From Chloroflexota bacterium (GTDB lineage Bacteria > Chloroflexota > Anaerolineae > Caldilineales > Caldilineaceae), in assembly GCA_003577005.1 (NCBI GenBank), contig QEUW01000497.1, positions 1 to 5,204 on the forward strand: a stretch of DNA of 5,204 bases, given 5' to 3'. Of the stretch, positions 1-5,204 are shown piece after piece. Position 1 is the first letter of the stretch; each line of letters begins with the position of its first letter. A program made the translations under genes and the position numbers. Below the pieces are notes generated by a model. The model did no database searches and was not told where the DNA came from. It saw nothing but the letters and a program-made list of their open reading frames with translations.

Positions 1-573
1 GCCAACCTGGTCTACAACCCGCCCAACCGCTGGGGGGAACTGCCCTTTGCCGGCCGCAGCTTTGACCTTACCTGGTGTTGGGCCGCGCTCTGGTACATCC
101 AGGATCCGGCCGGTCTGTTGGCCGAACTGGCCCGCACCAGCCGCAAGTTGGTCTTTGTCGCCATGCCCAACAATTTTCAGGTCGGTTACTGGCTGCGCAA
201 GCTGGTCATCGACCGCGAGTTCTTTGCTCACCACGACGAAAGCTGGACCGACATCGGCCGCATTCGCCGCATTTTGGAGGCCAACGGCGTCCAGATCATC
301 GACCAGGGCGTGCTCGATGTCCCGCCTTGGCCCGATACCGTCATGCCGGCCAACGAGGTGCTCAAGCGGCTGGGCATCCGCAGCAAACAACTGGAGGAGC
401 AGTTCACCGGCGACGGCTGGCGTTGGAGCACCATGGCCTACTACCTGGGTCAAGAGCCGGATCTCTACGAGCGCGTGATGAAGTACGCCTGGCTCGACCG
501 CGCCCCATTGCCGTGGCAGGTCAAGGCGATCTGGGCGCATCATCGCTATCTTTTGGGCCGGGTGCGGGAGTAG
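1..573 (+). CDS. Class I SAM-dependent methyltransferase, C-terminal part (start outside window)
   Basis: The frame is open from base 1 to the TAG at 571-573, giving 190 visible residues, so the N-terminus with the glycine-rich SAM-binding loop is missing. The visible part opens with LPFAGRSFDLTWCWAALWYI (visible residues 14-33) followed by QDP. This matches the Methyltransf_11/25 pattern in which an acidic residue ending strand 4 (FDL, D22) is followed by a helix and an 'alxyixdp' stretch, then a helix like LLAELARTSR and a strand like KLVFVAMP. The rest (about residues 60-190) is a Trp- and Arg-rich C-terminal region that I cannot assign, probably a substrate-binding cap. The likely role is cytosolic methyl transfer from S-adenosylmethionine; the acceptor is unknown. 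It converges on the DUF1294 gene with only 8 bases between the stop codons. Family-level confidence is good; specificity is not determinable. Confidence 0.8.
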   Translation, partial: ANLVYNPPNRWGELPFAGRSFDLTWCWAALWYIQDPAGLLAELARTSRKLVFVAMPNNFQVGYWLRKLVIDREFFAHHDESWTDIGRIRRILEANGVQIIDQGVLDVPPWPDTVMPANEVLKRLGIRSKQLEEQFTGDGWRWSTMAYYLGQEPDLYERVMKYAWLDRAPLPWQVKAIWAHHRYLLGRVRE

Positions 574-581
574 GTTGGTAA

Positions 582-932
582 TTAGTTCAACGCGACCAGC
601 TCCAGGTTGATCAGCCACAGGTGCAACAATGTAGCGAGCACCAATAACACCTTGAACCAAAAGTGTTGCGTCTTGTGGCGGAACCAAAACATGCCTGCCC
701 AGCCACCGATAAAGCCACCCGCAAACGCCAGCCCGTGGAGCCACAATTCGGGCACGCGCCAGCCCTTGCGTTGTGCTTGAAATTTGTCAAACCAGTAGTA
801 CCCAAAAGTGACAACTGTCAGCGCCAACAGCCACGCCTGGTACCAGGCCAGGTTTGCGCCAAACAAGATCCAGAGACCTACGCCAATCATCAACACGGTG
901 AAGAACAGATGGAGGCCACAGCCGCCGCGCAT
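582..932 (-). CDS. DUF1294 family small integral membrane protein
   Basis: This 116-residue protein has four hydrophobic segments, at about residues 7-25, 30-48, 63-83 and 91-111. The family signature is visible: YYWFDKFQAQRKGWRVPE (45-62), a Gly-rich segment AFAGGFIGGWAGMFWF (69-84), and RHKTQHFWFK (85-94). These match the DUF1294 layout of 'DK..A..G.wRipE', 'GG..Ga..gm..frHKt....F'. The role of the family is unknown; it sits in the cytoplasmic membrane, and some members carry an extra nucleic-acid-binding cold-shock domain that is absent here. ATG at 932 is the earliest possible start, because an in-frame stop lies about 30 bases upstream with no ATG, GTG or TTG between. A GAGGG stretch about 9 bases before the ATG could be the ribosome binding site. 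It lies downstream of the RraA-like gene on the same strand, but a strong hairpin separates them, so co-transcription is uncertain. Confidence 0.82.
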   Translation of the reverse strand: MRGGCGLHLFFTVLMIGVGLWILFGANLAWYQAWLLALTVVTFGYYWFDKFQAQRKGWRVPELWLHGLAFAGGFIGGWAGMFWFRHKTQHFWFKVLLVLATLLHLWLINLELVALN

Positions 933-1047: not shown

Positions 1048-1794
1048 TTAGGTTTGAGAACTTTGCTTTTTCGCCGCCCGATATTCTTCCCACATGGCCG
1101 GAGTGGGCGGATAATACTTGCCTGGTGCCACGCCCTCGGCCTGGATCTTTTCCTTGATGTATGCCTCAACCCCTTCATGGTCTTCGCAGATCGCCACACA
1201 TTCTTCGGCAAACCACGACGGCACCACGACCACACCATCGCCGTCGCCCACCAGCACATCGCCGGGCCGCACCAGCGCACCGCCGCACTGGATGTCCACA
1301 TTCTCTTCGGCTGGGATGCCCCACGGCGCCGAGGCGTAGGGTGTGCGCGCCTGGGCGTAGATGATCAACCCGTAGCCCTCGTCTTCCATCACATCCAGGT
1401 CGCGGATGGCGCCGTCGGTGACGATGCCATCGGCGCGGTTCATCTTGAGTTGCAGCGCCTTGACATCGCCAAAGATACACGAACGGGCATTGCCCATGAT
1501 GTCGGCTACGAGCACATCGCCGGGGCCGCAGCGGGCCATGGCGCGATATTCGGGTGCGTCGGCGCCAAGCTGCGTTTCCGCCAGCAGATCGGGGCGTGGC
1601 GGTAGAAAACGCAACGTGCGGGCGCGGGCAGCCAGCCGCTTGCCGGGCGTCCACAGATGGACGTTTTCCATAAAAGGCAGCGGCACGCCCGCGTCCTTGA
1701 CCACGTGGTTCCAGATAGTGGCGACGGGCAGTTTCTTGAAGCGATCCAGAATCTCCTGCGGCACATGGACGGGGGCGTACGAGCGGTCGGGCAT
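1048..1794 (-). CDS. RraA-like / HMG-CHA aldolase family protein (Methyltransf_6 fold)
   Basis: The 248-residue protein carries the core motifs of the RraA-like family (PF03737), often mislabelled as demethylmenaquinone methyltransferase: GPGDVLVAD (90-98), a variant FGD (108-110), VTDGAIRD (125-132), and a late [17 protein letters not shown] (176-192). In the characterised Pseudomonas 4-hydroxy-4-methyl-2-oxoglutarate aldolase, the Arg-Asp pair in this motif binds substrate and divalent metal; here these are R131 and D132. The family includes pyruvate aldolases/oxaloacetate decarboxylases and the E. coli RNase E inhibitor RraA. The intact R-D pair and the extra N- and C-terminal segments (about 248 against about 160 residues for E. 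coli RraA) make an enzyme more likely than an RNase regulator. AGGAGA at 1801-1806, 6 bases from the ATG, fixes the start. It begins 30 bases after the protease stop and probably shares that transcript. The protein should be cytosolic; its substrate is unknown. Confidence 0.86.
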
Positions 1795-1824: not shown

Positions 1825-2196
1825 TTAACTGACTTCTGTTGTACCGGCGATGCCATCTAGCGTCAAGATCAACTGGTTTAGAACATCGCGCCCCAGGATC
1901 GCTTCCGCTCCTGGCTTTGCGGCCACTGCCCGGATCCCCGGCATCCGATGAGGGCCGATCTGCACCTCAAGCAAGTAGAGATTTACGGATAAGGTGTGAC
2001 CTGTGATGCCATATAGTTGGCGCGTCTCCAGATAAACGGCTCCAATTTCCATCAAAATATCGATAGGCAGGATACATGCATCTGCACCGGTATCGATTAG
2101 AGCGGTCAAAAGCATCTCGCTCCGCCGCCGAATGGTGACTTCAACGACAGGCGCGCCAGGTTGGTAATTGCTGTCGTAAGAGAAAGAGATGCTCAT
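1825..2196 (-). CDS. Retropepsin-like (clan AA) aspartic protease
   Basis: This 123-residue protein has the single-lobe architecture of retroviral proteases. It shows the catalytic triad in ALIDTGADACILP (32-44, catalytic D35), a glycine-containing flap-like turn YGITGH (62-67), and the second conserved motif ILGRDVLNQ (100-108), close to the ILGRD-type helix motif of retropepsins. With only one DTG it must homodimerise to form an active site. There is no signal peptide or membrane segment, so it should be cytosolic. The start ATG overlaps the TGA of the upstream DUF5678 gene as ATGA (2193-2196). There is no good Shine-Dalgarno before it (only AAAGAA), so translation is probably coupled to that gene. 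The target is unknown. Sampled bases here are clearly AT-richer than the ABC genes. An alternative is a domesticated retroelement protease, but no reverse transcriptase or integrase lies nearby. Confidence 0.85.
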   Translation of the reverse strand: MSISFSYDSNYQPGAPVVEVTIRRRSEMLLTALIDTGADACILPIDILMEIGAVYLETRQLYGITGHTLSVNLYLLEVQIGPHRMPGIRAVAAKPGAEAILGRDVLNQLILTLDGIAGTTEVS

Positions 2197-2603
2197 TGTG
2201 TTCTTTGCACCAGGCGTGGAGAGCGAAAGTAGAGTGGTGGCGGCAATACTGGTTGCACTTGTCGAATCAGTACGATCTCGTCTGGGTAGTTCATTTGAAT
2301 ACGTTCGACGAGTCGAACCTCATCTGGATCGCAATCAACGACCTGGCCTTGGTAGATGGCAACGTATTCGCCCAAATGCTTGGTGACCAGTTTGCCATGC
2401 ATTTTACCAAAGGCCTCTTCTTCCTTTTGCATCAGGGGCTGTCGTGGGTCCTGGTAAAAAGGCGACGCTGCCTCTTCAACTTTTTGCTCCCCCCCGTTAG
2501 CATCATGGACCTGCAACGAGCGGACAAAATCCAGTGAAGAGAGCAATTCCGCCAACAGGCCGGCCTTCTGGTCGTCTGCCACCTCGATGATGATCTGTCG
2601 CAA
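2193..2603 (-). CDS. DUF5678-domain protein, partner of the adjacent retropepsin-like protease (TTG start)
   Basis: The predicted product is 136 residues from the TTG at 2603. The N-terminus RQIIIEVADDQKAGLLAEL (2-20) followed by LSSLDFV (21-27) resembles the beta-strand plus helix 'fl..LdfV' start seen in many short antitoxin-like proteins. A polar linker follows (about 30-65). The C-terminal part, GKLVTKHLGEYVAIYQGQVV (70-89), a 'DPDEVRLVERI' helix and NYPDEIVLIRQV (105-116), matches the DUF5678 pattern of 'l.k.hpGkyVAi.dg.vv', helix, 'yP...v.i..V'. A proline-rich tail of about 20 residues ends the protein. Its role is unknown; an adaptor, substrate or inhibitor of the protease is inference from the ATGA overlap. 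The start was chosen because an ideal AGGAGG precedes the TTG. The upstream in-frame TTG (2645) and ATG (2633) lie at or before the predicted transcription start. No membrane segments are visible. Confidence 0.78.
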   Translation of the reverse strand: MRQIIIEVADDQKAGLLAELLSSLDFVRSLQVHDANGGEQKVEEAASPFYQDPRQPLMQKEEEAFGKMHGKLVTKHLGEYVAIYQGQVVDCDPDEVRLVERIQMNYPDEIVLIRQVQPVLPPPLYFRSPRLVQRTQ

Positions 2604-2810: not shown

Positions 2811-4568
2811 ATGCAACACAGCGGGCTACGTTTTCTACTGCCATACATGCGACCCTACCGCGGATTGCTGGCGTTGGGCACCCTCTACGCCATGATCGGC
2901 GCTGGCGCACAGGCCTTTAGCCCCACCTGGCTCGGTTGGGGCATCGATGCGCTGACGAGGGGCGTCACCGGGCGCACATTGCTGGTCTACGCCCTGGGTT
3001 TGATCGGGCTTTCCATGATCCTGGCGGTCTTTCGCTATCTTTTGCGGATGCTCACCGGCGAGATTGCCGCCGGCGTCTCCTATCAGATGAGCCAGGACCT
3101 TTTTCACCGGCTCCTGCTCTTCGACCGTGAGACGCGCCAGCAATATGGCACCGGTGATCTGCTTTCGCGCGCCACCAGCGATTTTACCTACATCTGGCGT
3201 TTTTATTCAGCCGGTTTCCAGATGTCGATCCATGCCCTCTTTTTGCTGCTCATCGGCTGTGGGCTCATGGCGCTCACCAGCCCGTCGTTGGCGGGCCTGG
3301 TCATCGTGGCGTTGAGCATCAGCGTGGTCGCCCAGGTGCGGCTGGGCTCGATCCTCGAACGTTCGTTTGCTGTGGTGCAACAGGAGATGGCGCGGCTCTC
3401 TGGCTTTGTCCAGGAGCATCTCAACGCGGCGCGGATGTTGAGCGCCTATGCACAGGAGACAGCTGTGGGCGCCGCCTTTCGTGACGCCAACCGCACCTAT
3501 GTACAGCGCAACCTGACCTTTGTCTTACAGTCGGGCGCCATCTCGCCCATCCCCAGCATTGTCGTGCGGTTGACGGCGGCGGCGGTCATCTTTATCGGCG
3601 GCATGATGATCATCGGCAACCAGTTGACCGTCGGGCAGTATGTGCAATTTATCGTCTATCTGGGTCTGCTCAACAGCGCCACCCGGCAGATCACCGGCGC
3701 TTTTGAGCGGCTGCAACAGGGGAGTGCGGCGGCGGCGCGCATCGGCGAGGTGCTTCACCGCTGGCCCAAGATCGCAGACAGCGCCGCTGCCGTTGACATC
3801 AACTTCAAGGGAGATATTCACTTTGAAAATGTAGGCGTCTGGGCCGATGACCAGGACCGCTGGGTGTTGCGCCACATCGACCTGGACATCCCCGTGGGCA
3901 CGACCCTGGGCATCGTCGGGCCGACCGGTTCGGGTAAGAGCATGTTGATCAGCCTGTTGGGGCGTATCCACGACCCTGACGAGGGGCGCATCACCATCGA
4001 TGGACACGATCTGCGCCAGGTCAAATTGTCAGCGTTGCGCCACGCTGTGGTCTATGTGCCGCAAGAGTCGCTGCTCTTTAGTATGCCCTTGCGCGGCAAT
4101 ATTGCGCTGGGGCAGCCCGACACGTCCGACCCGCAGATCCACCGGGCGATGGAGCAGGCGCGGCTGAGCAAGGACCTGCCCCAACTTCCTAAAGGGCTGG
4201 AGAGCGTGGTGGGCGAGCGCGGCGCCACCCTCTCCGGCGGGCAGAAGCAGCGGGCGTCGCTGGCGCGGGCGCTGGTGCGCGAGCCCAAGGTGCTGATCCT
4301 CGATGATGCGCTGGCAAGTGTGGATATGAAGACCGCCGCCGAAATCATCAATGCGCTGCGCGCCGAAGCCGAGCGTCGCACCTGCATCATCGTCAGCCAA
4401 CGGATGAGCGCGGTCGAGCACGCCGACCAAATCATCGTGCTCGATGAAGGCCAGATCGTCGAACAGGGGAACCACGCCGAACTGATGACGTTGGACGGTC
4501 GCTACGCCGAAATGTATCACCGGGAAGTCCAACAGGCCGCGGAGGTATTGACCGATGGCGCAGAGTAA
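2811..4568 (+). CDS. ABC exporter half-transporter with degenerate catalytic site (TM287/BmrC-like subunit)
   Basis: This 585-residue protein has the exporter order TMD-NBD. The N-terminal half (about 1-310) holds six membrane helices with the coupling-region motif QYGTGDLLSRATSD (about 111-124). The nucleotide-binding domain has Walker A GPTGSGKS (370-377), Q-loop Q418, signature LSGGQKQR (474-481), Walker B VLILD (494-498) and D-loop ASVD (502-505). Two catalytic residues deviate: D499 stands where the catalytic Glu is expected, and the H-loop reads VSQR with Q530 in place of His. That pattern marks the subunit whose Walker motifs form the non-hydrolytic site in heterodimeric exporters. GGGGAGG 7 bases before the ATG fixes the start. 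The next gene overlaps by 14 bases and should encode the partner. It probably exports drugs, lipids or peptides across the cytoplasmic membrane; the substrate cannot be inferred. Confidence 0.93.
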   Translation: MQHSGLRFLLPYMRPYRGLLALGTLYAMIGAGAQAFSPTWLGWGIDALTRGVTGRTLLVYALGLIGLSMILAVFRYLLRMLTGEIAAGVSYQMSQDLFHRLLLFDRETRQQYGTGDLLSRATSDFTYIWRFYSAGFQMSIHALFLLLIGCGLMALTSPSLAGLVIVALSISVVAQVRLGSILERSFAVVQQEMARLSGFVQEHLNAARMLSAYAQETAVGAAFRDANRTYVQRNLTFVLQSGAISPIPSIVVRLTAAAVIFIGGMMIIGNQLTVGQYVQFIVYLGLLNSATRQITGAFERLQQGSAAAARIGEVLHRWPKIADSAAAVDINFKGDIHFENVGVWADDQDRWVLRHIDLDIPVGTTLGIVGPTGSGKSMLISLLGRIHDPDEGRITIDGHDLRQVKLSALRHAVVYVPQESLLFSMPLRGNIALGQPDTSDPQIHRAMEQARLSKDLPQLPKGLESVVGERGATLSGGQKQRASLARALVREPKVLILDDALASVDMKTAAEIINALRAEAERRTCIIVSQRMSAVEHADQIIVLDEGQIVEQGNHAELMTLDGRYAEMYHREVQQAAEVLTDGAE

Positions 4569-5204
4569 AGCCTTGCCTAAACAAAGTGAAGCCTCTGCCC
4601 AAGAGCGGACGAACGAGCCCGCTGGCGGGACAGCCACTGCAGCGAGCGCCGAGGAATTGAACCAGGATAGGGCGCTCTTCATCCTGCTGGGGCGGGCGCT
4701 GGCGCCCTACTGGCGCTGGACGGCGCTGGCGCTGGTGCTCATGCTGGGCGTAGCGGCGACTAACGTCGTGCCACCCTATCTGCTCCAACAGGCCATCGAC
4801 GGTCCCATCCGCCAGGGCAATATCGGCGCGCTCTGGTGGATCACACTGCTCTACGGCACCACTGCCGTCGCCAGCATCATCTTGACTTTTGCCTTTACCT
4901 ATTTTCTCCAGAAGGGGGCGCAACAGGCGCTGGCCGACATCCGCACGCGGCTCTTTGACCATATCCTCAAGCAGGACCACGGTTTTCTCACCCGCACGCC
5001 CACCGGGGAACTGGTGGCGCGGCTGACCAGCGATATCGACAGCCTCAATGCTGTGCTCTCCAACAGCATCGTCGTCATTTTGGTGGAAGGGGTGACACTC
5101 ATCGTCATTGTGGTGGTGATGTTCGCCACCAACTGGCGGTTGGCGCTGATTGCGCTGGTGGTGCTGCCGGTCGTCGCCATCGTCACCCGCTACTTTCGCC
5201 AGCG
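4555..5204 (+). CDS. ABC exporter half-transporter, N-terminal TMD part (TM288/BmrD-like partner, cut by window end)
   Basis: The ATG at 4555 lies inside the end of the previous gene in another frame, 8 bases after GGAGGT (4541-4546), and the frame stays open to the window end (216 complete residues). The first 40 or so residues are a polar, Ala/Glu/Lys-rich extension. An elbow helix and TM1 follow (LAPYWRWTALALVLMLGVAA, 49-68), with the PPYLLQQAIDGPI motif (73-85) typical of exporter TM1 ends. TM2 is at about 93-117. The intracellular helix with IRTRLFDHIL (129-138) and TPTGELVARLTSDIDSL (148-164) is the classic ABC_membrane coupling segment. TM3 and TM4 are at about 170-191 and 194-212. The nucleotide-binding domain lies outside the window. 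The close overlap indicates translational coupling and equal amounts of the two subunits. Confidence 0.92.
   Translation, partial: MAQSKALPKQSEASAQERTNEPAGGTATAASAEELNQDRALFILLGRALAPYWRWTALALVLMLGVAATNVVPPYLLQQAIDGPIRQGNIGALWWITLLYGTTAVASIILTFAFTYFLQKGAQQALADIRTRLFDHILKQDHGFLTRTPTGELVARLTSDIDSLNAVLSNSIVVILVEGVTLIVIVVVMFATNWRLALIALVVLPVVAIVTRYFRQ

Follow-up and report, generated by a model that had tools for sequence, protein, structure and literature searches.

A DUF5678 protein and a retropepsin-like aspartic protease form a recurrent gene pair laid out like a type II toxin-antitoxin module

The 5,204-nucleotide Caldilineaceae (Chloroflexota) contig analysed here, which we refer to as the window, carries on its minus strand a gene for a DUF5678 protein overlapping a gene for a single-domain retropepsin-like aspartic protease. 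We found that the adjacency of these two families is not due to chance, that it follows the type of the protease, and that in one family the two proteins are fused into one chain. A joint function of the two proteins, of whatever kind, is very probable, and we consider the chances evenly balanced that the partner restrains the protease in a toxin-antitoxin-like way, its layout being that of a type II antitoxin. The features on which the analysis rests are as follows.

1825..2196, minus strand: single-domain retropepsin-like aspartic protease, 123 amino acids, above the Pfam cut-offs of RVP, gag-asp_proteas and Asp_protease_2
1885..1899, minus strand: I-L-G-R-D motif of the protease, residues 100-104; G102, R103 and D104 invariant in 44 sequences
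2083..2094, minus strand: catalytic motif D35-T-G-A38 of the protease; D35 and G37 invariant in 44 aligned sequences
2193..2196, minus strand: ATGA overlap of protease start and partner stop; the -4 spacing recurs in 39 of 78 measured pairs
2193..2603, minus strand: partner gene, 136 amino acids, TTG start; N-terminal stretch, DUF5678 and flexible tail
2214..2228, minus strand: FRSPR tail motif of the partner, residues 126-130; F126, R127, S128 and P129 each in at least 90% of 62 sequences
2256..2393, minus strand: DUF5678 domain (PF18929) of the partner, residues 71-116; Pfam 27.9 bits, gathering cut-off 23.2
2508..2597, minus strand: N-terminal stretch of the partner, residues 3-32; 15 of 30 positions identical to the VapC-associated protein P0247
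2611..2616, minus strand: ribosome binding site AGGAGG, 7 nt before TTG 2603; GGAGGTGCA conserved in L001
2646..2654, minus strand: extended -10 TGG-TATAAT of the two-gene operon; sequence identical in L001

The partner is read from its TTG at 2603 to the stop at 2193 and the protease from its ATG at 2196 to the stop at 1825, with the partner upstream and the protease ATG lying within the partner stop. Both the coordinates and the Pfam matches agree with an earlier note on this DNA, which had described a DUF5678 gene and a single-lobe retropepsin gene joined by an ATGA overlap. The note had also assigned the pair an extended -10 promoter of its own, and here the outcome was mixed: TGG-TATAAT is present, ends 43 nt before TTG 2603 and is identical in L001, the nearest genome found, and it is because of this sequence and its conservation that we speak of the operon's own promoter, although a consensus promoter scan did not list the element. 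TGGTATAAT, GGAGGTGCA and the partner TTG are all conserved in L001. Comparison with L001 further indicated purifying selection on both genes, dN/dS being 0.14 for the protease and 0.15 for the partner by NG86 and 0.23 for each by YN00. The protease ATG of L001 is out of frame with the protease by one base, a shift that may be an assembly fault (L001 coverage is about 6).

The window protease belongs to clan AA, as indicated by its D-T/S-G catalytic motif and by Pfam scores above cut-off for RVP (35.8 bits, cut-off 20.7), gag-asp_proteas (33.3, cut-off 28.2) and Asp_protease_2 (29.2, cut-off 24.3), and it has the one-lobe retropepsin fold. Two NCBIfam models matched under their curated cut-offs (TIGR03698, 28.9 against 57.35 bits; TIGR02281, 19.5 against 57.95), and Pfam and NCBIfam together gave clan AA proteases only and no recognised toxin family. 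The DTGA and ILGRD motifs were located at the residues that the earlier note had given, and no signal peptide was seen by eye. I-L-G-R-D marks the partner-bearing, or G-R-x, type of protease as opposed to the LGxxxLE type.

The identity of the partner as a DUF5678 protein was likewise confirmed by the PF18929 score; the profile matches 61 of 62 aligned partners at E 0.1, and two relatives of the same length of 136 amino acids are 99% (P0063) and 86% (P0064) identical to the window protein. AlphaFold2 modelled a helix-strand-strand-helix-strand core at residues 55-115, with block pLDDT values of 95-98 at residues 61-120, and left the C-terminal tail unstructured, with block pLDDT falling to 78 and then 58. 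F-R-S-P within this tail is nevertheless among the best-conserved parts of the partner across the 62 sequences. A tail that is conserved yet unstructured is the usual sign of a docking peptide, and we infer that it docks on the protease, the obvious candidate. As to the N-terminus, which had been called antitoxin-like, the description stood in part: no antitoxin family in Pfam or NCBIfam matched it, but residues 3-32 resemble P0247, which is encoded on the Nostoc plasmid NZ_CP040300.1 directly before an annotated VapC toxin, with a 4-base overlap; at an E limit of 10 the database search gave two matches, of which this one, with E 0.08, is the better.

When 84,980 bacterial and archaeal species genomes were scanned with the protease alone as seed, the best 80 of 109 relatives were kept, corresponding to 79 loci, of which, by record title, 78 lie in Chloroflexota groups and one in Deltaproteobacteria. 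By profile, 77 of these 79 loci, which include paralogs and related species and are not independent, have a DUF5678 gene upstream in the same orientation. As for the two others, L070 lies at a contig edge, and at L079 the partner is not a DUF5678 protein but has the C-terminal tail in common with the rest. The genes are tightly spaced, 75 of 78 measured pairs lying within 20 nt, 39 of them with the -4 overlap, and 3 lying more than 100 nt apart (of 81 pair rows, 3 were without a start). The pair's own two families were present at 78 and 76 of 80 loci, and the next commonest family occurred at 7. Recurrent adjacency in this order, a check that the earlier note had named beforehand, is thus established. 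Tandem arrays of whole partner-protease pairs were also seen (L017, L029, L261-L263).

In the reverse direction, we inspected all 58 PF18929 matches of 12 genomes that had been chosen as protease holders. A protease adjoins 45 of them by profile and one more (L128) by eye, the divergent retropepsin of L128 having no Pfam match at E 0.01; among the rest, 4 are in multi-domain proteins, 1 is at a contig edge and 7 are solitary, that is, 7 of 53 testable stand-alone copies in these protease-holding genomes. Three solitary partners (L095, L111, L112) keep the R-S-P-R tail, which is lost, cut or changed in the others. The 12 genomes hold between 1 and 9 PF18929 copies each. The module is patchy, with a PF18929 match in 12 of 91 Chloroflexota genomes drawn evenly; the 16 matches of this draw comprise 6 that precede a retropepsin-like gene (broken in L158), 7 in long frames of 553-594 amino acids of the nucleotidyltransferase kind, 2 solitary copies (L151, and L157, a locus identical with L134) and 1 frame-broken fusion (L160).

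Within the phylum to which the one non-Chloroflexota genome belongs, 3 of 95 genomes have a PF18929 match, and a retropepsin-like gene follows directly in all three (L144, L145, and L143, the last being the L066 locus again), its Pfam match being above cut-off in L145 and sub-threshold in L144. A second retropepsin type of that phylum (L161/L211, L178/L187, L212, L213 and L215, all from one genome and several of them fragmentary) has upstream a divergent DUF5678-like protein recognised by eye only, the one copy examined lacking a Pfam match. In the 12-Mb genome concerned (G013), one retropepsin type matches 15 times, often as a fragment only (L161, L178, L183, L187, L209-L216), and the DUF5678-like gene lies upstream in all five readable places, a picture of a family in expansion and decay.

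Pairing proved to depend on the type of the protease. A census with PF13975 in 251 Chloroflexota genomes gave 131 matches in 73 genomes, which were classed by the motif after the catalytic loop; the tally covers 103 of them, 27 with frames longer than 215 amino acids having been left out and L259 not having been located. Among G-R-x retropepsins, 31 of 38 have a DUF5678 partner and 4 more a partner with an S-P-R-L/F-type tail, that is, 35 of 38 by automatic calls with a profile to which 15 of the tallied loci had contributed, so that their match is given by construction; inclusion of frames read by eye (L314, L219) raises this to 37, leaving L329 alone. Not one of the 39 LGxxxLE-type retropepsins has a DUF5678 partner. 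A match of the tail expression at L320, in the LGxxxLE class, was rejected as a short chance frame. A middle class with GLDFL, GADVL or GMDVI motifs was paired automatically in 9 of 14 cases and by eye in three more (L243, the first copy of L262, L283), with L316 and L325 unpaired, and cut or other protease types were paired in 3 of 12. Since the LGxxxLE class gave 0 of 39 where the G-R-x class gave 35 of 38, the pairing tracks protease type and is not a product of the method. Consistent with this, partner labels need 7 changes on a tree of 80 rows against a shuffled mean of 30, the tree having few columns and many long branches and its labels including L262, L283 and L314 as paired by eye and L319 and L331 as unpaired though the census tally gives them DUF5678; 15 further Chloroflexota rows are outside it, and of the census rows it takes in L261-L331 and L217-L219. 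One 1.3-Mb genome of the Chloroflexota draw (G322) has 14 PF13975 matches, several in tandem and none with a DUF5678 partner (L247, L265, L266, L271, L277, L297, L299, L311, L315, L320, L330).

The partners differ at their N-termini. Among 62 DUF5678 partners, RHH-type families matched at E 0.1 in 9 (RHH_1), 8 (PSK_trans_fac) and 8 (Antitox_RHH) sequences, sets that may overlap, with best E-values from 3.5e-6 to 0.0056. More telling are G-R-x retropepsins whose partner lacks DUF5678 and yet ends in the tail motif. The partner of L222 has no DUF5678; it is a member of the TIGR01552/PF02604 family, in which VVSPRLVNPADAIAFRMQF comes after a Phd/YefM domain that scores 46.4 bits with TIGR01552 (cut-off 20.8), ends in an SPRLV tail and is the only Phd/YefM case. 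The split retropepsin frame of L222 was identified through its relationship to the L079 type and not by the G-R-x motif. Five further partners without DUF5678 (L079, L217, L218, L219, L221) carry the tail, for example ILSPRLVRREDATRFKMTV, and are AF2212-like by weakly supported matches below cut-off, while the partners of L282 and L295, which lack DUF5678 too, have a sub-threshold RHH-like head and the tails LPSPRLI or MPSPTII. In other subfamilies the tail differs, ending LPASVLYHPVNADS (L310) or DLLIL (L149), and the 85-amino-acid partner of L145 has no recognisable DNA-binding domain. Although several of these assignments are weak, the sequences suggest that partners swap an N-terminal antitoxin-type domain (RHH, Phd/YefM, VapB-like or AF2212-like) and keep the S-P-R-L/F tail. 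Swapping of DNA-binding heads on an effector-binding part is known among type II antitoxins.

The two proteins also occur as one chain. With P0062 as query, 1808 proteins matched at E 0.001, at least 120 of them, P0062 included, being fusions among the matches listed; these are 214-228 amino acids long with 99-100% query coverage, the other 119 are 77-83% identical to P0062, and all four organisms named among the matches listed are Planctomycetota. The domains of a modelled natural fusion fold well individually; a pTM of 0.61 does not define their packing against each other. Those members of the family (P0062, P0128-P0246, about 215 amino acids) that carry a name are mostly annotated as hypothetical proteins, and the frame-broken copy L160 comes from a genome of the phylum of G001.

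DUF5678 is found in other contexts as well. In L139 (1488-3125) it lies, below cut-off, at the N-terminus of a protein that Pfam identifies as of the poly(A)-polymerase/tRNA-nucleotidyltransferase type, and seven more long Chloroflexota frames of 553-594 amino acids have a DUF5678 match (L146, L147, L148, L150, L153, L155, L156). In L087 (1009-2241, the same place as L105), L114 and L118, all three from genome G002, DUF5678 comes after a response regulator receiver domain (by Pfam for L087); the C-terminal part looks TOPRIM-like by eye, and an apparent histidine kinase adjoins L087 and L114.

A protease controlled by its partner would, in the layout of a type II toxin-antitoxin module, operate as follows. 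The partner would be made first and, through translational coupling, in a fixed ratio with the protease; its N-terminal antitoxin-type domain, VapB-like here, may bind the operon's own promoter and bring about self-repression; the DUF5678 core and the flexible FRSPRL tail may hold the cytosolic retropepsin inactive or on target; and loss, cleavage or titration of the partner would set free a protease dimer, whose targets would be one or a few proteins of the cell. Physical binding, binding via the tail, DNA binding by the window partner, inhibition rather than activation, and harm from the free protease are all steps that we infer. Partner control, at even probability, accords with the DUF5678 gene being upstream and tightly spaced, with the protease found beside the partner in the reverse survey, with type-specific pairing, with the fusion family, with a tail conserved though unstructured, and with an antitoxin layout that includes the Phd/YefM partner, RHH-type heads in up to 9 of 62 partners and five AF2212-like partners that likewise bear the tail. 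The partner occurs on its own in 7 of 53 copies, the G-R-x protease hardly ever (1 of 38), which fits a harmful enzyme and its guard. Against it stand the unrecognised N-terminus in the window, the weakness of the antitoxin-domain matches other than Phd/YefM, a partner-protease covariation that, at 1.61 for 93 pairs, does not exceed the values of up to 1.63 obtained after shuffling, and the occurrence of DUF5678 in protease-free proteins such as the nucleotidyltransferase-type enzymes and response regulators described above.

Mobility is a further point on which partner control has to be weighed. With the protease, the partner and the fusion as queries, and with two other protease types, no match was obtained in 72,556 plasmid records at E limits from 1e-4 to 0.1, and viral contigs gave no confirmed protease relative, unlike what holds for many toxin-antitoxin modules. 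L001, a Caldilineaceae metagenome genome, has the same neighbours as the window, three aligned pieces showing 79, 86 and 69% DNA identity, and together with the high identity of the fusions this looks like a settled cell function. The absence of plasmid and viral matches, the neighbourhood conserved in this one comparison and the highly conserved fusions thus argue against a classical addiction module.

A different reading, which we regard as rather unlikely but serious, is that the partner is an adaptor, specificity subunit or activator, needed for activity, which presents substrates or stabilises the protease dimer while its tail docks. A permanent one-chain fusion would suit such a standing subunit better than a removable inhibitor, G-R-x proteases are almost never alone, and DUF5678 is a small extra domain of unrelated enzymes too; the antitoxin-type domains of several partners, however, have no obvious place in a pure adaptor, and solitary DUF5678 proteins exist. 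Improbable is that the partner is at once repressor and substrate, the retropepsin cutting its tail or linker on a signal and so relieving repression. The linkage of DNA-binding-type N-domains to a conserved unstructured tail would be in keeping with this, but some forms lack a recognisable DNA-binding domain (the L145 partner and the 215-amino-acid fusions) and the tail differs between subfamilies. ImmA/IrrE-type proteases are metalloproteases; the window protease is a clan AA aspartic enzyme and not of the ImmA/IrrE type, and its enzyme class, which we take to differ from that of ImmA, counts against such a switch. Protease-repressor pairs are a known design, nevertheless, in that ImmA cuts ImmR, and both ImmA/ImmR and RosmerTA resemble our pair in encoding a protease with a small DNA-binding partner, although in RosmerTA the protease-domain protein is the antitoxin (PMC10440598, in excerpt). 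That the genes are operon neighbours without contact, kept together merely by a shared pathway, is very improbable, for despite the missing interface and covariation signals no other gene is widely recurrent beside the pair, fusions exist, and overlap and strict order hold across divergent subfamilies.

Returning to control of the protease by its partner, the resemblance to toxin-antitoxin modules that the earlier note had pointed out gains from one true Phd/YefM partner and, by weaker matches, from RHH-like or AF2212-like domains that stand before DUF5678 or replace it. Like type II modules, the pair consists of two small, adjacent, co-directional and overlapping genes with the partner first; it combines a putative antitoxin-type N-domain with a flexible conserved tail, places different N-domains on one tail and is present in several copies in some genomes. 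It differs in that the second gene encodes a retropepsin, outside the known toxin families, in that no plasmid copies were found and in that one family is fused. Tentatively, the pairs might represent a new toxin-antitoxin or stress-response class in which an HIV-protease-like enzyme is held in check by swappable antitoxin heads, a DUF5678 core that can be absent and an S-P-R-L/F tail that stays the same, the tail being the protease-recognition element and the released enzyme cutting a cellular target.

Other bacterial retropepsin-like proteases are RimB and RloA of Pseudomonas and APRc of Rickettsia; RimB has as operon partners the phosphodiesterase RimA and the ATP-grasp enzyme RimK, RloA is secreted, and the excerpted text of PMC12239564 mentions no DUF5678 or antitoxin-type partner. 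The PADLOC models PDC-M08B (28.8 bits, E 2.4e-7) and PDC-M52B (E 2.2e-4) weakly match the window protease, and at E 1 PADLOC had no matching model for the window partner, for the fusion or for any of four divergent partners. PDC-M08 and PDC-M52 are candidate defence systems, defence being only a candidate role; since PADLOC lists related retropepsins as B components, others have glimpsed such proteases in two-gene systems. The module is undescribed in the full-text literature searched, whose scope leaves out most subscription papers and all preprints, and in which 'DUF5678' occurs, by the excerpts, only in an Arabidopsis clubroot paper. Within this scope we likewise found no account of pairing by protease type, of the fusions or of varied heads joined to a common tail, both protein families being known by sequence. 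Single-domain retropepsins are scattered through bacteria with few roles known, and a near-obligate, subfamily-specific partner, sometimes fused and often antitoxin-headed, offers a handle on the control of a large group of them and gives DUF5678 a testable role. With the protease as effector, the toxin activities would come to include regulated cleavage by an aspartic protease; with the partner as activator, the pair would be a new kind of two-part protease.

In the window the pair sits between an RraA-like gene (1048-1794, minus strand) and a divergent ABC transporter. Beyond the former lie a DUF1294 protein gene (582-932, minus strand) and the end of a methyltransferase-like gene (1-573, plus strand), and the two overlapping transporter genes (2811-4568 and 4555-5204, plus strand) look like a heterodimeric exporter, the assignment of the first alone being Pfam-based. 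Between the divergent promoters, at 2716-2736, lies a 10-bp perfect inverted repeat, GGGCAAGATG / CATCTTGCCC, with a 1-nt gap; it is altered in L001 and is possibly an old repeat element or an operator.
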